Source of the DNA: Bacillota bacterium | GTDB lineage: Bacteria > Bacillota_A > Clostridia > Clostridiales > Clostridiaceae | DNA length: 9,790 bases | NCBI GenBank assembly: GCA_021780795.1 | Contig: JAJXYA010000426.1 | Coordinates: 1-9,790 of the forward strand | Reading direction: 5' to 3' | Shown: piece by piece, positions 1,539-9,716 of the stretch | How the letters are laid out: every line of letters starts with the position of its first letter | How positions within the stretch are numbered: the stretch's first letter is position 1 | Position numbers and translations under genes: made by a program | Notes under the pieces: model-generated | Seen by the model: only the letters and a program-made list of their open reading frames with translations | What the model was told of the DNA's origin: nothing | Database searches by the model: none

Positions 1539-1581
1539 TACCCCACCGGAGAGTCGAACTCCAGTTCATACCATATGGGGT
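1539..1581 (-). ncRNA. Minimal tRNA-like element 1 (acceptor + T-arm minihelix, 43 nt)
   Basis: Minus strand, 5' to 3': acceptor ACCCCAT (1581-1575), linker ATGGTATGAAC, T-stem TGGAG, loop TTCGACT, T-stem CTCCG, acceptor GTGGGGT (1546-1540), then A at 1539 followed by C. The acceptor pairs over 7 bp with one G-U; the T-stem pairs over 5 bp with one G-U. No D-arm or anticodon arm exists. It starts 11 nt after the stop of the gene at 1593 and is preceded by GGTA. The 18 bases at 1568-1585 are identical to those at element 8 (8637-8654), yet the T-stems differ completely and both still pair. Confidence 0.85.
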
Positions 1582-1592
1582 TACCCTATTCT

Positions 1593-1859
1593 TTATTCTT
1601 CAATACTCTCTAGATTAATTCGCATTTGTTTTTCTTTTTCTTCAAAGTCATCAATAAATATATCTACTGAATCTGCCACATCATCCATACTTTTTTGAAG
1701 CTTTAAAATTAATTCTTTTTCACTTTGAGTGATTGCCTTATTATTCAATAAATTAATCCAACCAGTCATTTCTGTATAAAGTTCTCCTATCATGTTGAGA
1801 GCTTGATAAAAAGTTAAATCCTCAGGCATAGGGTGGTCAACACCACATTTTTCACACAT
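1593..1859 (-). CDS. Helical protein with N-terminal Cys knuckle, 88 aa
   Basis: I place the start at ATG 1859, because AAGGA lies six bases upstream and the upstream stop (1861) is then cleared by one base. ATG 1877 would add six residues and overlap. The product starts MCEKCGVDHPMPEDLTFYQA, with Cys 2, Cys 5 and His 9 as possible metal ligands, followed by an all-helical, strongly acidic body. The segment FYQALNMIGELYTEMTGWI resembles the GYQALVDLTLLYKDINDELL segment of the protein encoded just upstream, so the pair are probably diverged paralogues. It is the last gene before tRNA-like element 1. The function is unknown. Confidence 0.8.
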   Translation of the reverse strand: MCEKCGVDHPMPEDLTFYQALNMIGELYTEMTGWINLLNNKAITQSEKELILKLQKSMDDVADSVDIFIDDFEEKEKQMRINLESIEE

Positions 1860-1860
1860 A

Positions 1861-2142
1861 TTATTCCTTATTTTCATTCAAAGAATTATTAAATCTTGTA
1901 ATTATTTCTTGAGAAGCTTTTATCTGTAACAATAAATCTTTTTCTGTAATTTCATTAGGAAGAAAATTATTAATTTCTTTTTTAATATCTTTAACAGATT
2001 TACCTTCAAAAATAGCTAAACGTTTTAATAATTCATCATTAATATCTTTATAAAGAAGTGTTAAATCTACTAGTGCCTGATAGCCAACTTCCATAGCTAC
2101 TACTACACTATCGTTTTCTTCATCATTGAAATTAACTTTCAT
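1861..2142 (-). CDS. Small all-helical protein, 93 aa
   Basis: The ATG at 2142 shares its A with the TAA of the upstream gene (TAATG junction), implying translational coupling; GGAAA lies just upstream. The 93-residue product is helical and rich in Asn, Asp, Lys and Leu, with no enzyme motif. Its YQALxxLxxLY segment at about residues 22-31 matches the next gene product (1593-1859), which suggests an old duplication. The next gene begins one base after this stop. It probably forms a complex with its neighbour or is a small regulator; neither can be decided from sequence. Confidence 0.82.
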   Translation of the reverse strand: MKVNFNDEENDSVVVAMEVGYQALVDLTLLYKDINDELLKRLAIFEGKSVKDIKKEINNFLPNEITEKDLLLQIKASQEIITRFNNSLNENKE

Positions 2143-2726
2143 TATTTTCCAATTATATTAGCTGCTTTTAAATCTATATTCATAAAATTAGTATATAAAT
2201 TTCCATGATATAAATAATCATTATTTATTAGTTTTGTAAGTGGCATAGAATAACCACCATACCAATATCCACATGGGAGCATTCTTCCATCATCCCTATG
2301 ACTTATACACAAAGCATGGTTTGCTTTTACCATTATTTTTTTGCCAATTACAACTTTAATTTTACGCGCAGGATAAAGACTATACTTTGAATTATATAGT
2401 CGATAGAGTTTGTTTACATCGTTATAGGCAAGATAATGGTTGTAATTCCAATTAGCTCGATTTGGATTTGAACCTGTATTATCAGGATACAAGCTTAAAT
2501 CAAGTTTATGTTGTTGCCAAATGACTTCTTTTCTATAAATTATTTTTTGAAGCACATTATATCTTGCTTCTTGCTCATAGAATTTTTTGTTAACTCTTAC
2601 TGATATTTTATCTAATGAGTAAACAGCTTGTACAATTACAAACGGATGCATATCATTAGATAAAACATCACCAACTATTGGTTTATAATCCTTGTCTATG
2701 AGTATAGGTTTTTTTTGTGTTGCCAT
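2142..2726 (-). CDS. Hypothetical protein, 194 aa
   Basis: This is the longest gene in the window. An ATG at 2726 follows AAAGGAG at seven bases. The product is basic and very rich in Tyr and Asn, with an aromatic Gly-rich stretch (PCGYWYGGYSMP, about 152-163) and Cys-His spaced ALCISHRDDGRMLPCG nearby. The composition suggests beta structure and a nucleic-acid- or sugar-binding surface, but I recognise no domain. There is no signal peptide. It is 18 bases after the upstream gene and overlaps the next by one base, in a block that runs 2951 to 1593. Confidence 0.83.
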   Translation of the reverse strand: MATQKKPILIDKDYKPIVGDVLSNDMHPFVIVQAVYSLDKISVRVNKKFYEQEARYNVLQKIIYRKEVIWQQHKLDLSLYPDNTGSNPNRANWNYNHYLAYNDVNKLYRLYNSKYSLYPARKIKVVIGKKIMVKANHALCISHRDDGRMLPCGYWYGGYSMPLTKLINNDYLYHGNLYTNFMNIDLKAANIIGK

Positions 2727-2744
2727 ATTATGCTCCTTTGTTTA

Positions 2745-2951
2745 TTACATTTTTGATCCTAAGCTAGTTCCAATAATTAACTTATTATAACTCTTAGTAT
2801 CATGAACCTTTAATCTGCCGAAAGCTCCATTATTGGTCTTACGCATTGTCCGTGCAGTATACTTTTCTGGGTCGGTAGATTGTGTAAAATATTTCTTGCG
2901 ATTTTCGTTCTTAATTTCAAAAAACAAATGATTATCTTTTATTGTGCTCAT
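2745..2951 (-). CDS. Small basic protein, 68 aa
   Basis: An ATG at 2951 follows GAGGA at six bases. The 68-residue product is strongly basic, with Lys/Arg throughout (for example ENRKKYFTQS and TARTMRKTNNGAFGRLK) and a C-terminus ending GTSLGSKM. This fits nucleic-acid binding, but no known fold is recognisable. It is the first gene of the block and lies directly downstream of a promoter-like sequence (2981-3009) and tRNA-like element 2, so it should be well transcribed. Confidence 0.8.
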   Translation of the reverse strand: MSTIKDNHLFFEIKNENRKKYFTQSTDPEKYTARTMRKTNNGAFGRLKVHDTKSYNKLIIGTSLGSKM

Positions 2952-2979
2952 ATATTTCCTCGTTTAGTATATAATAAAC

Positions 2980-3009
2980 AAGTATATACTTATTTCAATA
3001 AAATATCAA
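2980..3009 (-). promoter_or_regulatory. Sigma-70-like promoter, TTGATA-17-TATACT, overlapping a 12-bp palindrome
   Basis: On the minus strand TTGATA (3004-3009) is followed after 17 bases by TATACT (2981-2986), a 5/6 match in both boxes. The -10 box lies inside the perfect palindrome AAGTATATACTT (2980-2991), a natural place for a dimeric repressor, or a by-product of AT-richness. It would start transcription of the 2951-1593 block with a short leader just downstream of tRNA-like element 2. Confidence 0.5.
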
Positions 3010-3034
3010 GGATATAAGCAATTATTGCTATGAG

Positions 3035-3080
3035 TGGGACTAATGAGATTCGAACTCATTACTGATGTCGCCAGAGTCCC
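3035..3080 (-). ncRNA. Minimal tRNA-like element 2 (46 nt)
   Basis: Minus strand: acceptor GGGACTC (3080-3074), a 14-nt linker beginning TGGCGA, T-stem ATGAG, loop TTCGAAT, T-stem CTCAT, acceptor TAGTCCC (3042-3036), A at 3035, then C. Six acceptor pairs (GGGACT with AGTCCC) and five or six T-stem pairs are perfect. The element is preceded by GGTA and starts ten bases after the stop of the gene at 3091. It has no anticodon arm. The linker is the longest of the six minimal elements. Confidence 0.85.
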
Positions 3081-3090
3081 TACCAGTTGT

Positions 3091-3519
3091 TTAATTTTCA
3101 GTATTAAACATACTAATCATGCCATTAATATATTCTGAAAAACATAAAAAGAAATTTAAATGTTTGTTTAAGTCTCTTTTTAATGCTTCTACTAATACTT
3201 TTATTAAAGCAAAATATGTTTTTTTACCATTTTCAACAAAAATGTCATCATTTTGTTCTTTTAGTAATAAAGTTATTTTTTTTATAAGAATAATTGAAAT
3301 AGCAAAATCTTTAACTACGTCATCACTATATTTATCATATTGTTCATAACTATTATAAACTACCCCTATTAAAGAATAAATAGCTTCAGCTATATTACCT
3401 TGTACTTTTTCTTCAATAAGATCGTCAACCATTGCTTCAAATTTTTGAAAAGTTTGTAATTGAATATTCCCTTTAACTTTAAGAAAATCTTCAATTTCTT
3501 TAAAATCATCATCTAACAT
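3091..3519 (-). CDS. All-helical hypothetical protein, 142 aa
   Basis: An ATG at 3519 follows AGAGGA at five bases. The product is entirely helical, acidic at the N-terminus (MLDDDFKEIEDFLK), with amphipathic helices and aromatic-rich C-terminal helices (FFLCFSEYINGMISMF). Although some segments are very hydrophobic, charged residues interrupt them and I see no convincing membrane span. Size, composition and position link it to the helical genes at 3556-3900, 4376-4750 and 4764-5267, but it lacks their clear TPxQ motif. It is the last gene before tRNA-like element 2. The function is unknown. Confidence 0.82.
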   Translation of the reverse strand: MLDDDFKEIEDFLKVKGNIQLQTFQKFEAMVDDLIEEKVQGNIAEAIYSLIGVVYNSYEQYDKYSDDVVKDFAISIILIKKITLLLKEQNDDIFVENGKKTYFALIKVLVEALKRDLNKHLNFFLCFSEYINGMISMFNTEN

Positions 3520-3555
3520 TTTTCCTCTTTTTATTTAATTATTACAATCTTTTAT

Positions 3556-3900
3556 TTAATTATCATGATCACATCTTACTAAATTAAATAAATCATGTAA
3601 GAAATTTTCTAATTTTGAACTTGGGATTGATAAGCTTTCTTTTTCTTCATCGGACATATCATTAAATGTTTCTACAACTAATAGAGTTACTTCATTTGCG
3701 ATTTTTTTAAAATTTTGCAAAAGAATATAATCTTCTTGAGCTTTTTCATTATCATTTAAATAATTTAATAAATTTTGATCATGATTTTCTATATGAAATA
3801 ATTGACTACTTAAAACATTAAAAAGAAAATTTACAGAATTTCCAATAATTAATCTTTGCATTTCTGTAAGATCTTTTATTGAAATATTTTCATTGCCCAT
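3556..3900 (-). CDS. All-helical protein of a local paralogous family, 114 aa
   Basis: An ATG at 3900 follows AAGGA at about seven bases. Near the N-terminus the motif LTEMQRLIIGNSVNFLFNVL (11-30) matches LTPLQTLLLSETVIITSSLV in the protein at 4376-4750 and FTPQELLMMSLSFNHIANVL in the protein at 4764-5267. The rest is helical and acidic, ending in LVRCDHDN. It lies between tRNA-like element 3 and a 36-base gap before the next helical gene. Family duplication and divergence explain the pattern; no enzyme motif or membrane segment is visible. Confidence 0.82.
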   Translation of the reverse strand: MGNENISIKDLTEMQRLIIGNSVNFLFNVLSSQLFHIENHDQNLLNYLNDNEKAQEDYILLQNFKKIANEVTLLVVETFNDMSDEEKESLSIPSSKLENFLHDLFNLVRCDHDN

Positions 3901-3949
3901 ATATATCCTTTTTGATTTCTATTTATTGATATTTATATTGCTAATATCG

Positions 3950-3993
3950 TGGGCAGAGAAAGAATCGAACTTTCTCTAACGCACCAACTGCCC
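3950..3993 (-). ncRNA. Minimal tRNA-like element 3 (44 nt)
   Basis: Minus strand: acceptor GGGCAGT (3993-3987), linker TGGTGCGTTAGA, T-stem GAAAG, loop TTCGATT, T-stem CTTTC, acceptor TCTGCCC (3957-3951), A at 3950, then C. Six of seven acceptor pairs form (the innermost is T-T), and the T-stem can extend to six pairs. It begins six bases after the stop of the gene at 4000, the tightest spacing in the set. Confidence 0.85.
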
Positions 3994-3999
3994 TATTTA

Positions 4000-4218
4000 T
4001 TACTCATCTTCAGTTCGTCTATCTGCAGCAATGATAAACTCTGCTAAATTCGGTATATCTTGATATGCTGCTTCAAGTCTAAATAATTCATTTGCTTTTT
4101 CTTTACTAATTGCTTCTTTATCAGTCCATTGACAATATTTACTGTTATGTTTACCTTCATGATTTAGATCTAAGACACAAACCCCTCCATGAGGGCAATA
4201 ACTATTATAACTACTCAT
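4000..4218 (-). CDS. Small Cys/His protein, 72 aa
   Basis: The product begins MSSYNSYCPHGGVCVLDLNH and continues EGKHNSKYCQW, giving Cys 8, Cys 14, His 20, His 24 and Cys 29. The C-x5-C-x5-H-x3-H-x4-C pattern resembles small phage and bacterial zinc proteins with a C-x-L-x-x-x-H-x-G-x-H core. Residues 35-72 form acidic helix. The ATG at 4218 has no clear Shine-Dalgarno box close by; the leader instead holds the strong 10-bp hairpin of the structured RNA at 4252-4375, so its translation may depend on RNA structure. It stands alone between two RNA elements. Confidence 0.78.
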   Translation of the reverse strand: MSSYNSYCPHGGVCVLDLNHEGKHNSKYCQWTDKEAISKEKANELFRLEAAYQDIPNLAEFIIAADRRTEDE

Positions 4219-4251
4219 TTTTTGTTTGACCCAGGCCTTCTCAAAGTATTT

Positions 4252-4375
4252 CTAATACTAGCGCTTTGGGGATAACTAGTATTAGCTGATCTCCCAGAGA
4301 CAGCATCTTCAAAAATTTGAATTCTTTTTTGAAGGCGCTTGGCTGGCTTCCCATCTGCAGTACTGTGTTTCCCCA
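4252..4375 (-). ncRNA. Structured RNA element of unknown class (about 124 nt)
   Basis: This gap holds a folded element unlike the minimal ones. On the minus strand there are: hairpin CTTCAAAAA/TTTTTGAAG, 9 bp (4307-4315 with 4326-4334); hairpin GCTG-TCTC/GAGA-CAGC with a TGG loop (4285-4304); and a perfect 10-bp hairpin CTAATACTAG/CTAGTATTAG (4252-4261 with 4276-4285). The 14-nt loop of the last contains TCCCCA, which can pair over 6 bp with TGGGGA at the 5' end (4370-4375), giving a pseudoknot or alternative fold. There is no TTCGA T-loop. It starts directly at the stop of the gene at 4376 and precedes the gene at 4218. It may be a cis-regulatory leader or a diverged member of the tRNA-like series. 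Confidence 0.6.
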
Positions 4376-4750
4376 CTATTCATCACTTTCTTTGCGTAAC
4401 ATATTTATAAACTCATTAGCAATTTCTTCTAAAATAGAACTATATGCTCCTATAATTCCGATAAGTTCTTCTGGTATTTTTTCTCCAATTTGTTTTTCTC
4501 CACTTTCCCAAATTTTACGACGTACATCATACATTGTTGTTACAGCAGAATCAAGTAAAATTTTACCTACTTGTTCAGATTCTGGTGCTCTAGTATTATC
4601 TTTTGTAAATCTATCAATTTGTATAGCATTATTTACAAGTAAAAATTTTACTAAACTAGAAGTTATTATTACAGTTTCTGATAATAATAATGTTTGAAGA
4701 GGAGTTAAATTAACAGTAATACATTCTTCTAACAGTTTGTTTTCATCCAT
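4376..4750 (-). CDS. All-helical protein of a local paralogous family, 124 aa
   Basis: An ATG at 4750 follows AAAGGG at seven bases. The N-terminal motif LTPLQTLLLSETVIITSSLV (15-34) is the clearest version of the family signature shared with 3556-3900 and 4764-5267. The C-terminal half (LLDSAVTTMYDVRRKIW, then LEEIANEFINMLRKES) aligns with the C-terminal half of 4764-5267 (LFDNVTKVIINISSKIY, then LTFLKTLLSSQS). It lies 13 bases after that gene, so the two form a tandem pair. It ends in TAG. No catalytic motif; possibly a helical bundle that binds a partner protein. Confidence 0.85.
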   Translation of the reverse strand: MDENKLLEECITVNLTPLQTLLLSETVIITSSLVKFLLVNNAIQIDRFTKDNTRAPESEQVGKILLDSAVTTMYDVRRKIWESGEKQIGEKIPEELIGIIGAYSSILEEIANEFINMLRKESDE

Positions 4751-4763
4751 TTTTTCCCTTTAA

Positions 4764-5267
4764 TTAAGATTGGCTAGACAATAATGTTTTTAAGAAAGTT
4801 AATGAACTTTCCAAACAACTATGAAATATAGTAAAAAATTGTTCTGAATCTTCTGGCGCTTGATGAGTGTAAGACTCCATATAAGAATTATATATTTTGC
4901 TAGAAATATTAATTATTACTTTAGTAACATTATCAAAAAGTATAGAACCAGTTCCAAATTCTTCACTACTTTCGGTGTTCATTATATTTTTTAATTTTTC
5001 TAATGTTTCATGGTCTAAATCATTTAAATTATCAAAATCTATTTCAGAAAATTCTGGATGTTTTTCTTTAAATATTTTTGGTTCAAAAATAGCTACATTA
5101 GAATACTTTCTATACAACAGTAAAACATTTGCTATGTGATTAAATGATAATGACATCATTAATAGTTCTTGAGGTGTAAAAGTACTACTAATTTCTTTAG
5201 TAAAGAAATCCTCTAAAATTTTAATATTTTCATCATCATTAAATTTATTATTTAATTCACTTTCCAT
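4764..5267 (-). CDS. All-helical protein of a local paralogous family, 167 aa
   Basis: An ATG at 5267 follows AGAGGA closely (four bases). This is the largest family member. The signature FTPQELLMMSLSFNHIANVL lies at about 31-50, followed by an acidic linker (EFSEIDFDNLNDLDHETLEK) absent from the shorter paralogues. The second conserved half starts near 107 (SILFDNVTKVIINISSKIY). No transmembrane segment is convincing. It is the first gene after the long tRNA-like element (5296-5461) and is in tandem with its paralogue at 4376-4750. The function is unknown. Confidence 0.85.
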   Translation of the reverse strand: MESELNNKFNDDENIKILEDFFTKEISSTFTPQELLMMSLSFNHIANVLLLYRKYSNVAIFEPKIFKEKHPEFSEIDFDNLNDLDHETLEKLKNIMNTESSEEFGTGSILFDNVTKVIINISSKIYNSYMESYTHQAPEDSEQFFTIFHSCLESSLTFLKTLLSSQS

Positions 5268-5295
5268 GTTCCTCTTTTCTTTTTTGTCAAACTAG

Positions 5296-5461
5296 TAGTC
5301 CTGGAGGTAATCGAAACCCCTACTATAGATACTCAAGCAAAAACATAAATGTTAAAATCAACTAAAATACATTTTTATGTAATGCGAATATACTAGGAAC
5401 TATCGGCTGAAACTGACCAATAACCCGTAGCTTTATTATAGTAATACCAACTATCAGGACC
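5296..5461 (-). ncRNA. Long tRNA-like element 5 with D-arm and a large insert (166 nt)
   Basis: Minus strand: acceptor GGTCCTG (5461-5455) pairs over 7 bp with CAGGACT (5303-5297), with G-U at the first pair; A at 5296 is the discriminator, followed by C. A D-arm (TAGT-TGGTATT-ACTA, 5453-5439) follows the 5' acceptor. The T-arm is GGGGT, loop TTCGATT, ACCTC (5320-5304). Between them lie about 118 nt, including an ATTGG/CCGAT hairpin (5402-5421) and TACAT/ATGTA (5369-5381), where an anticodon arm would be. A possible 5-bp arm AATAA/TTATT has a nine-base loop and no convincing anticodon. It could be an intron-containing tRNA, a tRNA with an expanded arm, or a punctuation element with an insert. 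Confidence 0.7.
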
Positions 5462-5497
5462 ATGTAAGCATTTTTATGACGTGCTTAGGTCATATTA

Positions 5498-5650
5498 TTA
5501 ATCCTCAAACACATCAGGATCAGTTAATTCCTTAAAGAGAATTTCTCCAAAAGTTTGTTTAGCTTTAATAATAGCTAACTGTCTTGCATCATATTCATCA
5601 ATTATACCATCTAGATGAACTTGAAACTGAAATTGAACTGTAAAACTCAT
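5498..5650 (-). CDS. Hypothetical small protein, 50 aa
   Basis: The gene has 50 codons from ATG 5650 to TAA 5498. Its ATG shares the A of the upstream TAA (TAATG), the same coupling seen at 2142, which argues strongly that it is translated. The product begins MSFTVQFQFQVHLDGIIDEY and ends ELTDPDVFED: a beta strand of alternating polar and hydrophobic residues, one helix and an acidic tail. No domain is recognised. It is the last gene before the long tRNA-like element, 36 bases downstream. Confidence 0.75.
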   Translation of the reverse strand: MSFTVQFQFQVHLDGIIDEYDARQLAIIKAKQTFGEILFKELTDPDVFED

Positions 5651-6054
5651 TATTTATTCTCAACAAATTCTTTAGGTCTATCAACAATTATTGCACAGGT
5701 ACAACCTACTGACATCCAATCAGGCTGATTATGATGATGATCGCAACCATACTTACCATGCTCAGCCATAAGATGCTTACATTTTACACAGTATGTTTTA
5801 TCAAGTTCATCTTGATCAACTGGCTTAGTTTTTACTTCCCATTCTGCAATACTTAAATGTAGTACTATGCTTACTCCAAATTTAGTGACAATAATCTTTC
5901 TATCCCACCAACCTTTAGCATGTGGATCAGCTTGCCAATCTTCAGACTTACCTTCTCGATATGCCTGAGCTTCTTCAAGGGAATCAAAAATTTCTATAAT
6001 TTCTGAAATATCTAGATTTTCTTCGTTATGTTCTCTAAGAATATAAACTCTCAT
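5650..6054 (-). CDS. Protein with C-terminal Cys/His cluster, 134 aa
   Basis: An ATG at 6054 follows AAAGGAG at nine bases. The N-terminal half is alpha/beta and includes FDSLEEAQAYREG (about 23-35), a helix resembling the EEAI helix of the YDL-motif family encoded upstream. The C-terminal third has CVKCKHLMAEHGKYGCDHHH and then GCTC: C-x2-C-x-H-x4-H-x4-C, then C-x-C about 13 residues later. This is the layout of small zinc modules common in phage and bacterial proteins. The start overlaps the end of the frameshifted gene at 6035-6333 by 20 bases and the stop overlaps the next ATG. The role is unknown; metal binding is likely. Confidence 0.83.
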   Translation of the reverse strand: MRVYILREHNEENLDISEIIEIFDSLEEAQAYREGKSEDWQADPHAKGWWDRKIIVTKFGVSIVLHLSIAEWEVKTKPVDQDELDKTYCVKCKHLMAEHGKYGCDHHHNQPDWMSVGCTCAIIVDRPKEFVENK

Positions 6055-6333
6055 TTTCTATACTCCTTTCTTGTTTAATATAATTTTCTTTTTCATATAC
6101 ATCTGTTAATGCATTGTTAAATGATTCAGATAAATCATAAACCCTAAGATAGTTCCAACCAGCATTAAAATGCCATTCTATTGCTTCTTCTAAAGTTGTA
6201 AAACTACCCTGATTTGATGGGACAACTGCCCATTTATAGGAATCGTTTATGCTTTTTTAGCAACTATTAAATATTCTTTACCTTCTTGTTGAGCATCAAA
6301 GAACCATTGTCTTATATCGAGTTCTTTATTCAT
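6035..6333 (-). pseudogene. Fourth YDL-motif family member, interrupted by a -1 frameshift
   Basis: ATG 6333 follows AAAGGA. The first frame reads MNKELDIRQWFFDAQQEGKE then YLIVAKKA and stops at TAA 6247-6249. Shifting to the -1 frame at a run of six A (6253-6258) restores a family-like protein of 99 residues with VVPSNQGSFTTLEEAIEWHF and LRVYDLSESFNNALTDVY, ending in TAG at 6035. With one added A the join VAKKSINDSYKWAVVP aligns without gaps to LAKKLGEENYSFGLIP of the gene at 6922-7248. Alternatives are a true frameshift mutation, a homopolymer sequencing error, or programmed -1 slippage on the A run. The phase is not that of a canonical X-XXY-YYZ heptamer. Confidence 0.75.
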
Positions 6334-6375
6334 TATATTTTCATCCTTTCTTTTTATACTTTTTTATATTACTAG

Positions 6376-6418
6376 TACTCACGAGGGGAATCGAACCACC
6401 TCTACAACCATTATGAGC
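6376..6418 (-). ncRNA. Minimal tRNA-like element 6 (43 nt)
   Basis: Minus strand: acceptor GCTCATA (6418-6412), linker ATGGTTGTAGA, T-arm GGTGG, loop TTCGATT, CCCCT, acceptor CGTGAGT (6383-6377), A at 6376, then C. Six acceptor pairs form, two of them G-U. The T-stem is the weakest of the set: either one T-C mismatch, or a bulged T giving a six-pair GAGG-GG/CC-CCTC stem. It starts 16 bases after the stop of the gene at 6435. Confidence 0.8.
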
Positions 6419-6434
6419 TGTTTTATACATTTAA

Positions 6435-6596
6435 TTATCTTCTTTTGGTTTTTTGATGAATATTGTGTGTCGGATAATCTTTACATTCATCACGGTTACA
6501 CACTGCTCTTAAAAAATGATCATGTTTAATAGTTGCATATGCATGTGCATGAGAATGTTCATATTTTCCTTGACTATGTGAATGAATATTATTCAT
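6435..6596 (-). CDS. His-rich small protein, 53 aa
   Basis: The protein begins MNNIHSHSQGKYEHSHAHAY and continues with HDHFLRAVCNRDEC. It has ten His in 53 residues, mostly in H-x-H steps, plus a C-x4-C pair, so metal binding is plausible. A longer start at ATG 6641 (68 aa) would overlap the upstream gene by 32 bases, and its only purine-rich box (GGGA) is two bases from the ATG, too close; ATG 6596 is preceded by AAAAAGAA and clears the upstream stop. It is the last gene before tRNA-like element 6. The function is unknown. Confidence 0.72.
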   Translation of the reverse strand: MNNIHSHSQGKYEHSHAHAYATIKHDHFLRAVCNRDECKDYPTHNIHQKTKRR

Positions 6597-6609
6597 TATA
6601 TTCTTTTTA

Positions 6610-6915
6610 TTAAATCCATAAAATTCTTTCAAATCCTTCATGTTCCCAATTTTTTGCTGCTCTCCTAATATATGTTACTTGTTTACTAGTAGTAGAAGAA
6701 TATTTCTTAGGATTTATACAATATGTTCTATCAGTAAAATTAACAAAGCATATTAATGTTTTATAAGAATAAATGGCATAATCATATTTGTAATATTTAA
6801 TTAATTGTATTTCTTGATCTGGTTTAAGTATACCACTCATATTATTACCATAATGAGTAAAATTTAGGAAATACATCATATTTTTTACACAGACTGCATA
6901 ATTAACTTTTTTCAT
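6610..6915 (-). CDS. Internally duplicated Tyr/Phe-rich protein, 101 aa
   Basis: An ATG at 6915 follows AGG at about six bases. The protein appears to contain two copies of one unit: NYAVCVKNMMYFLNFT (5-20) and DYAIYSYKTLICFVNFT (45-61), both of the form [ND]YA[VI], then a hydrophobic strand and NFT. It is basic, especially at the C-terminus (YIRRAAKNWEHEG). The pattern suggests a tandem duplication of an all-beta or alpha/beta motif of about 40 residues. It lies seven bases after the YDL-family gene at 6922. No known domain is recognised. Confidence 0.82.
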   Translation of the reverse strand: MKKVNYAVCVKNMMYFLNFTHYGNNMSGILKPDQEIQLIKYYKYDYAIYSYKTLICFVNFTDRTYCINPKKYSSTTSKQVTYIRRAAKNWEHEGFERILWI

Positions 6916-6921
6916 TAAAAC

Positions 6922-7248
6922 CTACTTTATTTTGATTACACCACTAGGATTTTCTGATGTAATAATTCTCATTAATGCATATTCAAATTTTGCATATAAA
7001 TCATAAACTTTAATTAAAAAATATTCATTTTCTAAACACCATTTAATTGCTTCGTCTATACTGTCCCAATATGTTCCTTGAGGTATTAGACCAAAAGAAT
7101 AATTTTCTTCTCCAAGTTTTTTAGCAAGCACTAAATAATCATAATCTGATTTTTGATATTCTATAAACTTTTTTTGTGCAAAAGAAATATCTGATGTTGA
7201 ATCCAATATTTGATCTAATTCTGGATCTAATTTTATTTCTTCACTCAT
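6922..7248 (-). CDS. YDL-motif family protein, 108 aa
   Basis: The family shares: DYDYLVLAKK (about 34-43 here), a Gly/aromatic strand ending in IIP or LIP, WDSIDEAIKWCLEN (61-74), and a terminal IKVYDLYAKFEYALMRI strand-helix (79-95). The conserved EEAI helix with a strand on each side suggests a compact alpha/beta domain. This copy has an N-terminal extension of about 16 residues over its neighbour. Its ATG overlaps the upstream TGA (ATGA), so the two are coupled. It stops at TAG 6922. The family function is unknown; tandem copies suggest diversification, for example against varying host targets. Confidence 0.85.
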   Translation of the reverse strand: MSEEIKLDPELDQILDSTSDISFAQKKFIEYQKSDYDYLVLAKKLGEENYSFGLIPQGTYWDSIDEAIKWCLENEYFLIKVYDLYAKFEYALMRIITSENPSGVIKIK

Positions 7249-7523
7249 TGTTTTCTTTCTTCTAAATATTCACTTTGATGAATAGATTTTACTAATGCTG
7301 TTTCAAATTTAGAATAAAGATCATAGATATAAATTTCATCCCAAGAGTGGTTAAGACAATATTCAATGGCTTCGTCTACAGTTTCCCAAGAGAGTGGACC
7401 TTGAGAAGGTATTATTCCATAACCACTGATAAGACCTCCTCTAGCAATTATTAAATAATCATAATCTGTATTTTGAAATTCTTCAAATTTACGTTTTGCC
7501 AAATCTTTTAAAGTATCATTCAT
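7245..7523 (-). CDS. YDL-motif family protein, 92 aa
   Basis: An ATG at 7523 follows GGAG at seven bases. It carries all the family blocks: DYDYLIIARG (19-28), GYGIIPSQ (34-41), WETVDEAIEYCLNH (46-59) and IYIYDLYSKFETALVKSI (64-81). It is most similar to the gene at 6922-7248, with which it overlaps by four bases (ATGA), consistent with recent tandem duplication. It ends with a charged tail (EYLEERKQ). The 18-bp perfect palindrome at 7538-7555 lies between it and the upstream copy. The function is unknown. Confidence 0.85.
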   Translation of the reverse strand: MNDTLKDLAKRKFEEFQNTDYDYLIIARGGLISGYGIIPSQGPLSWETVDEAIEYCLNHSWDEIYIYDLYSKFETALVKSIHQSEYLEERKQ

Positions 7524-7537
7524 TAGTTCTCCAATTT

Positions 7538-7555
7538 AATAATACTAGTATTATT
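7538..7555. repeat. 18-bp perfect palindrome AATAATACTAGTATTATT
   Basis: The two halves are exact reverse complements with no spacer. It sits in the 32-base gap between two YDL-family genes, just after the stop of the upstream copy (7556-7558) and 15 bases before the ATG of the next. Related ACTAG-centred inverted repeats occur in the structured RNA at 4252-4285 and at 8291-8300. It may be an operator or a short RNA hairpin; no U-tract follows, so it is not a typical terminator. Confidence 0.7.
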
Positions 7556-7837
7556 TTAATAAACAATTTTTATTAACGATTCTTCAAAAGGAGCATATAG
7601 ATCATAAATTTTAATATTTTTGTAACCATAATTCAGATGATGCTCAATAGCTATATCTATAGTATCAAGCTCCTCACAATTTGCACCAATTTGAATAAGT
7701 AATTCATTCGGTATGATGTTCCAAAAAAAATTATCATTATTATTTTGACAAATTAGTAAATAATCTGCATCTGATCCTTGTAAGGATTTAAAACGTTCTT
7801 TTAAAAATTCTTCTTCACCTTCATTCATTTCTTTCAT
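7556..7837 (-). CDS. YDL-motif family protein, 93 aa
   Basis: An ATG at 7837 follows GGAG at six bases. Blocks: DADYLLICQN (23-32), FFWNIIPNE (36-44), LDTIDIAIEHHLNYG (57-71) and IKIYDLYAPFEESLIKIV (75-92). It is the most diverged of the three intact copies: the segment between the IIP strand and the helix is longer, and EEAI has become DIAI. It is the first gene after tRNA-like element 7 (28 bases away), so it heads the cluster. The function is unknown. Confidence 0.84.
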   Translation of the reverse strand: MKEMNEGEEEFLKERFKSLQGSDADYLLICQNNNDNFFWNIIPNELLIQIGANCEELDTIDIAIEHHLNYGYKNIKIYDLYAPFEESLIKIVY

Positions 7838-7865
7838 TTTTTCTCCAGTTTTAATCTATAAATCG

Positions 7866-7909
7866 TACTCGCTGTAGGAATCGAACCTACACTATGTACC
7901 ATAGCGAGT
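7866..7909 (-). ncRNA. Minimal tRNA-like element 7 (44 nt, fully paired)
   Basis: Minus strand: acceptor ACTCGCT (7909-7903), linker ATGGTACATAGT, T-stem GTAGG, loop TTCGATT, T-stem CCTAC, acceptor AGCGAGT (7873-7867), A at 7866, then C. All seven acceptor and five T-stem pairs are Watson-Crick, exactly the tRNA dimensions. GGTA precedes it, as for elements 1, 2 and 8. It is the best single example for modelling the class. Unlike the others it does not follow an intact gene; upstream is a degraded region. Confidence 0.9.
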
Positions 7910-7950
7910 TACCTTAATACCTAATACTTTTTAATACTTTTTACTTCCAA

Positions 7951-8148
7951 CTAATTCCTATTATAAAATTTTAATTTTAATGTGATATCTCCACTAAAAC
8001 AAAATTTTATAACAAAATTAGGATTATCTATACATATATTTTTAAAGGCTGATAGATAAGTCCTTCCCTCGTTCTTCCCTCAAAGCTTTTTACGCCTCTA
8101 TTGGTCCGTGCCCATATCCACAATATACTTTTGATTTACTGCTCTCAT
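7951..8148 (-). pseudogene. Possible remnant of a small gene with two in-frame stops
   Basis: From ATG 8148 one frame reads MRAVNQKYIVDMGTDQ, then TAG, five codons, TGA, then 42 open codons including NPNFVIKFCFSGDITLKLKF and a terminal TAG at 7951. The last part reads like a natural phage C-terminus, but it contains no ATG, GTG or TTG, so it could not start on its own. Other frames of the same stretch are also partly open. A 12-bp inverted repeat, TTATAAAATTTT and its complement (about 7961-8014), overlaps it. The rest of the 374-base stretch 7838-8211 holds tRNA-like element 7 and no other supported gene. Decayed gene or noncoding RNA are both possible. Confidence 0.25.
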
Positions 8149-8211
8149 TAGGAATTTACAATCTCCCAATCCTGGCCGGACTCACAATTTCATTGTGTTG
8201 ATGGGTGATGT

Positions 8212-8499
8212 GTGCACAACGTTACATTTATTTTCAATATAAAGAACTTCATAAAGTTAAAGCCACACTTAAACGTTCTGGTAGCTAACCTTACTAGTAA
8301 TAAGATGTATGCTAAATTTAGTCATATCAACAATGCCGGAGGACTGGCACAGCCTTTTCCCGGATTCACTATTGAACAATATATCTATCGTCAATATAAC
8401 AGAAAGTTTAGCCTAAATTTATATAATACTAATTTAGTAAGAGATTATCCAGCTCCACATTTACTATATGTTTTCAAAAATAATGAAATTTATAATTAA
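8212..8499 (+). CDS. Only plus-strand candidate gene, up to 95 aa
   Basis: The frame is open from GTG 8212 to TAA 8499; ATG 8305 would give 64 residues. It is unlike the shadow frames elsewhere: nothing codes on the opposite strand here, and the second half (for example PFPGFTIEQYIYRQYNRK and LVRDYPAPHLLYVF) has natural composition and AT-rich third positions. Neither start has a convincing ribosome binding site, and I see no clear promoter. The region from 8040 to 8220 is richer in GC than its surroundings, hinting at separate origin. It may be an inserted gene, a remnant, or a chance frame. No family is recognised. Confidence 0.4.
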   Translation: MHNVTFIFNIKNFIKLKPHLNVLVANLTSNKMYAKFSHINNAGGLAQPFPGFTIEQYIYRQYNRKFSLNLYNTNLVRDYPAPHLLYVFKNNEIYN

Positions 8500-8607
8500 T
8501 TTAATACACCATAGATGTAGAATGGATCAACAATTAATTAATTATAAATATTGATTTTCAAATTTTAATATAATAACGAGACACTTTAAGGGCATGTCCA
8601 GGCCCAG

Positions 8608-8650
8608 TACCCCATGAAAGAATCGAACTTTCATAAATACCATATGGGGT
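8608..8650 (-). ncRNA. Minimal tRNA-like element 8 (43 nt, fully paired)
   Basis: Minus strand: acceptor ACCCCAT (8650-8644), linker ATGGTATTTAT, T-stem GAAAG, loop TTCGATT, T-stem CTTTC, acceptor ATGGGGT (8615-8609), A at 8608, then C. Seven and five Watson-Crick pairs. The 5' half is identical to element 1, but the 3' acceptor strand has A where element 1 has G (A-U versus G-U), and the T-stem is wholly different with pairing kept: compensatory change that supports the fold. It starts 12 bases after the stop at 8663. Confidence 0.9.
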
Positions 8651-8662
8651 TACCTACATCAA

Positions 8663-8872
8663 TTAATTATCTCTTACTCCACCTTCGCTAGCAATAAGAC
8701 CTCCTGGTGTCCAGTATCGCTCTTCAAACTCAAACCAGATTTCAGGGAATGCTGCCTGTAACAAAACAATATTATTTGAATCGGCTTTACGCATTGCAGA
8801 CATAATCAGTGAAGAAAATGGAGGATCAGTTGCTGAAATTTCCAAACTTACTTGATAACTATGAAGACTCAT
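8663..8872 (-). CDS. Conserved-looking small phage protein, 69 aa
   Basis: I place the start at ATG 8872 (MSLHSYQVSLEIS), preceded by GGAAAAAG, rather than the upstream TTG-type extension that lies inside the neighbouring gene. The C-terminal part, LLQAAFPEIWFEFEERYWTP then GGLIASE, resembles small phage proteins of the general form LxxAFPE...RYxxPGG, from memory and without a search. An N-terminal beta strand precedes a helix. The ATG overlaps the stop of the gene at 8859 by 14 bases. It is the last gene before tRNA-like element 8. The function is unknown. Confidence 0.8.
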   Translation of the reverse strand: MSLHSYQVSLEISATDPPFSSLIMSAMRKADSNNIVLLQAAFPEIWFEFEERYWTPGGLIASEGGVRDN

Positions 8873-8981
8873 GCTTTTTCCAATTCTTACGAATACGACG
8901 CTTCTGTCTAAACGACAAAGCATCCTTATTAGTAGTACCCTTTTGCTTCAAATAATTCTGAAGTCGCTTTTCATTATCCAT
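8859..8981 (-). CDS. Very small basic protein, 40 aa
   Basis: ATG 8981 follows GGAG at six bases, which decides the start; the longer frame from 9047 lies inside the upstream gene. The product ends FRQKRRIRKNWKKHESS, a strongly basic helix, after an N-terminal helix MDNEKRLQNYLKQKG. Short phage proteins ending in RQxRRIRK-like helices are common and are often presumed to bind nucleic acid, but no function is established here. It is coupled to both neighbours: ten bases after the previous stop and overlapping the next ATG. Confidence 0.78.
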   Translation of the reverse strand: MDNEKRLQNYLKQKGTTNKDALSFRQKRRIRKNWKKHESS

Positions 8982-9599: not shown

Positions 9600-9644
9600 A
9601 CTTTTTTGATTCCTTTCTAACTACTGTTTCTCATATTTTGAGAG

Positions 9645-9716
9645 CCCCCCTGACAGGAATCGGACCTGTATCTAAACATTAGAAGTGTTCTGTTCTATCC
9701 ATTAAACTACAGGGGG
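9645..9716 (-). tRNA. tRNA-Arg (anticodon TCT)
   Basis: A full cloverleaf of 72 nt: acceptor CCCCCTG/CAGGGGG; D-arm GTTT-AATGGATA-GAAC with the GG pair; anticodon arm GAACA-CTTCTAA-TGTTT; variable loop AGAT; T-arm ACAGG-TCCGATT-CCTGT; discriminator G at 9645. CCA is not encoded, but the next base is C, as in the minimal elements. The T-loop has C where nearly all tRNAs have T at position 55, which is unusual. It reads AGA, a codon expected to be frequent in this AT-rich genome. It starts ten bases after the stop of the partial gene upstream, the same placement as the tRNA-like elements. Confidence 0.93.

Follow-up and report, generated by a model that had tools for sequence, protein, structure and literature searches.

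Phage DNA encodes a family of RNA minihelices of about 43 nt that keep the acceptor stem and T-arm of a tRNA without its anticodon, and these elements likely serve as punctuation, as predicted cleavage sites for RNase P and a 3′ tRNA nuclease. A preliminary description had placed six of them on the coding strand of the window, meaning the whole 9,790-nt stretch of DNA analysed here. All six (e1 to e6) were verified at those positions, on the minus strand, together with a seventh, expanded member. The features are as follows.

1539–1581, minus strand: e1, minihelix of 7+5 bp, starting 11 nt past the stop of ORF 1593–1877
1593–1877, minus strand: ORF immediately upstream of e1, whose homologue adjoins the orthologous element in L166
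3035–3080, minus strand: e2, minihelix of 6+6 bp, starting 10 nt past the stop of ORF 3091–3519
3091–3519, minus strand: ORF immediately upstream of e2
3950–3993, minus strand: e3, minihelix of 6+6 bp, starting 6 nt past the stop of ORF 4000–4218
4000–4218, minus strand: ORF immediately upstream of e3
5295–5461, minus strand: expanded seventh member, 167 nt, with orthologues at L031:4001-4164 and L166:4596-4761
6376–6418, minus strand: e4, minihelix whose T stem contains a bulged U, starting ~16 nt past the stop of ORF 6435–6641
7556–7837, minus strand: ORF immediately downstream of e5
7866–7909, minus strand: e5, minihelix of 7+5 bp, ending 29 nt ahead of the start of ORF 7556–7837
8608–8650, minus strand: e6, minihelix of 7+5 bp, starting 12 nt past the stop of ORF 8663–8923
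8663–8923, minus strand: ORF immediately upstream of e6
9644–9716, minus strand: ordinary tRNA-Arg(TCT) called by ARAGORN, a contrast case

Architecture of the minihelices

The six elements measure 43–46 nt and consist of an acceptor stem and a T-arm, with no anticodon arm. Their loops read TTCGA[ACT]T, in agreement with the TTCGANT loop first described, and the loop of the wider family is TTCRANT. The exact tRNA geometry claimed at the same time is found in e1, e5 and e6, which have an acceptor of 7 bp and a T stem of 5 bp, and was slightly too strong a wording for the other three. In e2 and e3, the seventh acceptor pair is missing and an extra T-stem pair is gained, the stack still being 12 bp, and in e4 the acceptor and the T stem each fold as 6 bp, the T stem with one bulged U, which by eye is retained in its orthologue (L166:5380-5424). 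All six elements carry TGG[T/C] 0–2 bases after the 5′ acceptor strand, as well as A73-C74, and none encodes CCA. The connector between acceptor and T stem spans 11–14 nt in the five strict window elements and gives no room to an anticodon arm. From its sequence, the conserved GG would correspond to the D-loop half of the tRNA elbow, able to form that elbow together with the T-loop.

Beyond the search pattern, GG followed the acceptor in 20/21 elements. Compared with an RNase P substrate, the elements possess the 12-bp stack capped by a T-loop and depart from the 3′ RCC(A), with C74 in 21/21 and CCA absent. Among 43 elements outside the pattern, R73 was present in 36 and C75 followed by A in only one.

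The helix length of 12 bp is conserved though the internal junction shifts. A 12-bp helix, either 7+5 or 6+6, was found in 62/66 distinct strict elements; 22 of the 66 are 7+5, and 40 of the other 44 gain a sixth T-stem pair. Since membership of the strict set already required a TTCRA loop and 6+5 pairs, the informative part of this result is the 40/44, to be set against a mean of 21.6 and a maximum of 31 of 44 when partners were shuffled (2000 shuffles).

The expanded member at 5295–5461 has the same acceptor, TTGGT and T-arm, here enclosing an internal domain of ~120 nt. Double changes affect 8 of its 53 predicted pairs, three of these in the 5-pair T stem, and it has no Rfam match. T4 rnaC/rnaD were considered as its kin on a by-eye reading alone. 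The preliminary description, correct as to the six elements, had missed this member, the elbow GG and the link with stop codons, and the system is wider than it had claimed.

Detection and recurrence in phages

A strict scan of the window returned five elements, e4 being excluded by its bulge; 200 dinucleotide shuffles gave 0.01 on average and never more than 1. These and the other shuffles, together with reversed-sequence controls that gave 0 matches, rule out a chance origin. An earlier, looser scan of L001–L030 had given two matches, one of them within a tRNA, versus one in the reversed control. ARAGORN called none of the six elements, tRNA-Arg(TCT) being its sole call in the window. Against Rfam 15 at E<=1, e5 gave a sub-threshold match to tRNA (RF00005; 22.1 bits, cut-off 29) and the other five window elements had no RF00005 match, while an element at L031:2759 scored 22.2 bits against the same cut-off of 29. 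No known Rfam family reached its cut-off with the elements of the window and L031; Plastid-ycf2 5′UTR (RF04354) was discarded, its antisense matches being far under the cut-off. A terminator scan found three minus-strand sites, none coinciding with an element, and shuffles contained promoter-like sites at least as often.

Recurrence, which had been proposed as a check, was found in relatives. Orthologues with compensatory changes are present in two syntenic relatives: those of e1 lie at L031:8541-8585 and L166:1323-1370, those of e2 show compensatory changes in both the acceptor and the T stem, and e3 also has orthologues. A pairing-blind pattern search of phage contigs yielded 90 distinct elements, 35 of which are fully paired, compared with a mean of 0.10 and a maximum of 2 in 1000 shuffles; the acceptor sequences are varied, with 26 different ones among these 35. 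Covariation of the stems was found on the model-fitted alignment as well as in the orthologues, which agrees with the earlier statement that stems of different sequence keep their pairing.

Model R2 identified members in 57 of 87 chosen loci, 100 distinct ones in all, the cultured mycobacteriophage Theia being among the carriers; e2 was missed by this model at E<=0.001. Copies in other phage contigs rule out a single-phage oddity, and among the records searched whole some phages, such as Theia, have only one element. A feature of the host genome was rejected, as 0/59 other genomes of the class of the MAG had a match at E<=1e-5, in a strictly filtered search that scored no more than 104 candidates in each genome. 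No strict element was present in L001–L030, the relatives obtained through phrog_16527, on which R1 gave weak matches, down to E=0.005, several within tRNA T-arms. Relatives sought through window:5650-6054 numbered none. Whole-genome R2 searches gave no match at E<=0.05 in T4, lambda, Skadi-5 and Stormageddon, partial matches only in SPO1, vB_BcoS-136 and LE2-3, and six weak matches in Myrna, the best full-length one at 26 bits. ET08 and Finch had no R2 match at E<=0.001.

Placement relative to genes

A stop codon lies at most 15 nt before the start of the element in 46/98 cases, and in 16/98 the last stop base is shared with the element. By comparison, a stop codon is this close for 9.9% of random non-ORF positions (n=1816) and for 11/132 true tRNAs (8%). 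These tRNA-shaped elements abut coding genes, as in punctuation of the mitochondrial type, and in contig L168 small genes and elements alternate. Other counts speak against punctuation: the upstream stop is more than 30 nt away in 47/98 elements, 23/100 overlap an ORF call, the next gene starts 16–45 nt downstream in only 38/89, and both flanking genes are co-directional in 63/89 (11 edge cases dropped). Within the window, e5 has no gene close by upstream. In Theia and its relatives, a TTGACA-type sequence was seen by eye directly after the element.

Proposed mechanism and alternatives

Under the punctuation reading, the minihelices would be the sites at which the host's RNase P, together with a 3′ tRNA nuclease, cleaves the polycistronic phage transcript. 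RNase P, cutting at the 5′ edge of the acceptor, would free the upstream message with nearly no 3′ UTR, and a 3′ tRNA-end nuclease, RNase Z or another, would cut near the discriminator, leaving a short leader on the next message; the released minihelix would possibly be CCA-tailed before decaying. Where the last stop base is shared, a 5′ cut would reduce the stop to an incomplete UA and would require tailing, cutting after translation, or a cut on the 3′ side alone. Incomplete UA stops of this kind occur in animal mitochondria.

The retained parts of the tRNA are those measured by RNase P, RNase Z and the CCA enzyme, and the decoding parts are lost. RNase P is described, in the cited excerpt, as measuring the stack of T-stem-loop and acceptor, requiring a T-loop or similar loop and dispensing with the D-loop (PMC4919913), and its RNA, according to another, cleaves model substrates made of acceptor and T stem (PMC11143913). 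Stop-codon adjacency beyond that of tRNAs and random sites, the alternation in L168 and the constant 12-bp helix strengthen the punctuation reading already put forward in the preliminary description, of which we still infer the cleavage step. Against it stand phages with a single element, such as Theia, in which little would be punctuated, the 16 elements whose shared stop base a clean 5′ cleavage would damage, and the 3′ end, which has no encoded CCA and keeps only C74 of RCC, suboptimal for an E. coli-type RNase P. More tentatively, many phages may have RNase P and RNase Z dice their polycistronic RNA into single-gene messages at dedicated minihelices, with stops ending at or inside base 1 of the minihelix, which would amount to an independent reinvention of mitochondrial punctuation.

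Location directly after stop codons would also suit an element that stays on the upstream mRNA as a tRNA-like terminus, trimmed on its 3′ side alone and perhaps given CCA, with the 12-bp helix blocking 3′ exonucleases. The identity of acceptor base 1 and the last stop base in 16/98 favours this reading, as a 5′ cut would break the stop. We nevertheless consider it unlikely, given that protection needs no tRNA T-loop, elbow GG or C74 and that the RNase P determinants are conserved.

Retention of the acceptor and T-arm in the absence of the decoding parts could equally reflect free minihelices acting as decoys that occupy or inhibit tRNA-acting factors, whether defence nucleases, acceptor-end toxins or tRNA-processing enzymes, and attackers of tRNA tails or acceptor ends are described in the cited excerpts (PMC12851939, PMC11559606). 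A decoy, however, would draw no benefit from a position just past stop codons or between successive small genes, and the acceptors vary in sequence (26 different ones among 35), which makes this explanation quite improbable. We give slightly less credit still to another cis-regulatory RNA, for example a tRNA-like site bound by a phage or host protein that controls translation, decay or transcription of a neighbour: the position in cis beside genes and, by eye, the TTGACA-type sequence following the element in Theia and relatives agree with it, but the conserved features are those of a tRNA-processing substrate and are identical across very different phages. Decayed tRNA genes, stripped of the D and anticodon arms, are very hard to credit despite a likeness in sequence to the D-loop, T-arm and acceptor of tRNAs and the phage tRNA genes nearby in some contigs, as relics would lose pairing whereas both stems covary strongly around a stack constant at 12 bp, and the placement is unlike that of true tRNAs.

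Whatever its function, this RNA family occurs in dozens of phage contigs, has no Rfam 15 match at cut-off among the loci tested and is skipped by ARAGORN. If the punctuation mechanism is true, phages would have converged on the transcript-cutting logic of animal mitochondria, and this would account for separate messages arising from runs of tiny genes that have no promoters or terminators of their own. As mycobacteriophages such as Theia provide carriers in culture, the question is directly testable in M. smegmatis mc2 155.

Comparison with known systems

Some phage copies share the incomplete-stop arrangement of mitochondrial tRNA punctuation. As presented in the cited excerpt, that system likewise places tRNA shapes between the genes of a polycistronic transcript, with genes ending at or beside the element, but its elements are working tRNAs (PMC4394434), whereas the phage ones have no anticodon, are not functional tRNAs and cannot decode. 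They also belong to phage genomes, where they occupy one region rather than occurring throughout. No earlier account of such a phage system was found in the titles and abstract openings of the open-access papers screened.

The RNase P RNA model substrates described in the excerpt of PMC11143913 have the same architecture of acceptor stem, T stem and loop with no further arms; they are laboratory constructs, while the phage elements are genomic. The same excerpt names natural phage substrates of RNase P, namely C4 antisense RNA, M3 RNA and T4 gene 32 mRNA, which are phage transcripts too and, by their description there, individual RNAs rather than a repeated family of post-gene minihelices. The Rfam tRNA family RF00005 has the acceptor, T-arm, T-loop and D-loop-like GG in common with the phage elements, which differ in lacking the anticodon arm and the D stem and reach at best 22.1 bits in the window against a cut-off of 29.

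Plant mitochondrial t-elements resemble the phage elements in being tRNA-like, located beside genes, outside translation and without encoded CCA, and their cleavage by RNase P and RNase Z is reported, in the cited excerpt, to set mRNA ends (PMC11658184). There they are described as tRNA-gene homologues with typical tRNA-like secondary structures; the phage elements are instead bare acceptor/T-arm minihelices that form a recurrent family with covarying stems.

Anticodon-less tRNA-shaped elements of the window

All six minihelices lie where a preliminary description had placed them, on the minus strand, which is the gene-carrying strand, and lack an anticodon arm, as it had claimed. A seventh, expanded member was added.

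1539-1581, minus strand: element e1, 7-bp acceptor stem and 5-bp T stem
3035-3080, minus strand: element e2, 6-bp acceptor stem and 6-bp T stem
3950-3993, minus strand: element e3, 6-bp acceptor stem and 6-bp T stem
5295-5461, minus strand: expanded member, about 120 nt enclosed by the acceptor and T-arm ends that the others have, with TTGGT
6376-6418, minus strand: element e4, 6-bp acceptor stem and T stem with a bulged U
7866-7909, minus strand: element e5, 7-bp acceptor stem and 5-bp T stem
8608-8650, minus strand: element e6, 7-bp acceptor stem and 5-bp T stem

In each of the six, the 5′ acceptor strand is followed by TGG(T/C), at this strand or at most two bases from it, and by a short connector; next comes a T stem closed by a TTCGANT loop, and last the 3′ acceptor strand and A73-C74, with no encoded CCA. 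A strict scan of the window (TTCRA loop and all 6+5 pairs) retrieved five elements versus 0.01 expected (200 shuffles, maximum 1). Elements e1, e2, e3 and e6 lie 6-12 nt from the upstream stop codon and e4 lies 16 nt from it, while e5 has no close upstream gene.

Among the minus-strand genes, 6922-7248, 7245-7523 and 7556-7837 are adjacent paralogues of unknown function (37-44% identity), and 3556-3900, 4376-4750 and 4764-5267 seemingly form a second related small-protein set with a similar N-terminal motif, judged by eye. The approximately 700 bp from e5 to e6 (7910-8607) hold no convincing minus-strand gene and a lone plus-strand ORF (8212-8499).

Orthologous elements in related contigs

No named phage matched the window by megablast. 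The gene order of the window is common to IMG/VR contig 3300014499_000004 (67.8 kb; L031/L032), retrieved by a pattern derived from e1 and e6, and to a 5.5-kb contig (L166) in a MAG labelled Bacillota, retrieved by a close variant of that pattern. The recurrence in relatives and the covariation that the punctuation proposal called for were both found: orthologous elements adjoin orthologous genes, with compensatory changes. The acceptors of e2 and its two orthologues read GGGACT/AGTCCC, GGGGTT/GACCCC and GGAGCT/AGCTCC, the T stem of e1 varies among orthologues with pairing kept, and the bulged U of e4 is retained, by eye, in L166.

For the expanded member, alignment columns with the L031 and L166 orthologues average 90% identity. 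In the RNAalifold consensus of these three sequences, the acceptor has 7 bp and the T stem 5 bp, three of the latter showing double changes, and the internal domain is folded; Rfam returned no match at E≤5.

Searches used two models of the family, R1 (seven elements) and R2 (72 R1 matches from 40 chosen sources). At E≤0.05, the eight elements that R2 found on the 67.8-kb contig all fall within 46.3-64.4 kb, so that they are restricted to one region. The portal protein of this contig bears a distant likeness to actinobacteriophage portals; as L166 sits in a Bacillota MAG, the host is uncertain. At L032:2028-2074 (plus strand), an element with an ACCCCAT/ATGGGGT acceptor has neither the TTCRA loop nor the GG, as if both halves of the elbow had been lost jointly.

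Spread of the family in phage contigs

The pairing-free pattern TATGGTN{7,12}GTTCGAYTCN11AC matched at least 120 stretches in viral contigs. Pairing was analyzed on 90 distinct elements among the matches listed, leaving out L031, L166 and elements no more than 8 bases from the locus start: 35 showed all 6+5 pairs, whereas 1000 shuffles averaged 0.10 and never exceeded 2. The 5′ strands of these 35 come in 26 versions for the acceptor and 22 for the T stem. The remaining 55 fall short of full pairing in a fixed register; when the register may shift by two bases, 11 of 12 pairs are reached by 62 of the 121 pattern matches listed. In the model-fitted alignment of the 72 R1 matches, pairing holds in 95.6% of cells and double changes number 316, against 56.6% and 80.6 after shuffling; these figures are biased toward structure by the fitting, a bias from which the 90-element set is free.

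At E≤0.001, R2 gave 105 matches (100 distinct) from 57 of 87 chosen loci, e2 not being among them. The MAG's class was also sampled through 59 other bacterial genomes, none of which gave a match at E≤1e-5. T-arm-like elements also occur at L010:17760-17778, L010:19305-19323 and L011:14153-14171 (plus strand), loci without an ARAGORN tRNA. The minus-strand 1582-aa portal ORF at L043:4795-9543 shows additional matches, to endonuclease and helicase families, in its central part, perhaps an intein-like insert.

Mycobacterium phage Theia carries one element (48.7 bits, R2), as do Bonamassa, George, Discoknowium and Jovo, all four examined among the 54 records matching the Theia element region. A compensatory T-stem change sets the Bonamassa element apart from that of Theia. 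The element starts 3-4 nt past an annotated stop codon in Theia, Bonamassa, Discoknowium and Jovo; George has no annotated gene at the site. R2 found no element in T4, lambda, Skadi-5 or Stormageddon at E≤0.05, nor in ET08 or Finch at E≤0.001.

Constant features of the elements

Geometry was derived from 66 distinct strict elements of 124 loci (L145 and L162 being left out in favor of longer stretches of their records). The seventh acceptor pair is present in 22, and 40 of the 44 others have a sixth T-stem pair (shuffled partners: mean 21.6, at most 31), so that 12 bp are kept in 62 of 66. Strict elements not covered by the search pattern number 21, with 0 in the reversed-sequence control; they retain GG after the acceptor (20/21), C74 (21/21) and A(-1) (17/21). 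According to a review (PMC4919913), the acceptor/T-stem stack is what RNase P measures, the D-loop appearing dispensable and the T-loop or a similar loop needed, and RNase Z and the CCA-adding enzyme gauge the same edge.

Placement beside stop codons

With mechanical ORF calls, an upstream ORF is present for 98 distinct elements. Of these, 22 begin no later than the stop codon of that ORF ends, 46 no more than 15 nt and 51 no more than 30 nt past it; for random non-ORF positions (n = 1816), the proportions are 3.4%, 9.9% and 14.4%. In 16 of the 98, the base shared with the stop codon is exactly its last. Among 153 true tRNAs from 22 loci (five added for this control), 11 of the 132 with an upstream ORF lie within 15 nt of its stop. 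For the 43 elements unmatched by the search pattern, the figure within this distance is 28 of 42. On the downstream side, 38 of 89 elements have the next ORF start at 16-45 nt. Locus L168 holds nine elements (5039-8127; eight from R2, the ninth, at 7745, from a looser scan) interspersed with small ORFs in about 3 kb: those at 6074, 6321, 7163 and 8085 share the last base of an ORF stop, that at 6625 begins directly after one, and that at 7745 begins before the end of its ORF call. Counter to punctuation, however, 47 of 98 elements lie more than 30 nt from the upstream stop and 23 of 100 overlap an ORF call.

Proposed processing and related systems

Since the elements retain the tRNA parts measured by processing enzymes, have lost those that decode, and often lie beside stop codons, tRNA-style punctuation is the best reading, cleavage itself being what we infer. 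Where an element shares the last stop base, RNase P cleavage would leave UA; in mitochondria, such incomplete stops are completed by tailing. The main rival, that processing may occur on the 3′ side only, draws on the same positions: in phage, stop-base sharing may point to it rather than to stops completed by tailing. No earlier description of such a phage system was found in the open-access library searched, most subscription papers being outside its scope. The closest known systems are the tRNA punctuation of mitochondria (PMC4394434), the t-elements of plants (PMC11658184) and model RNase P substrates made of acceptor and T stem (PMC11143913).
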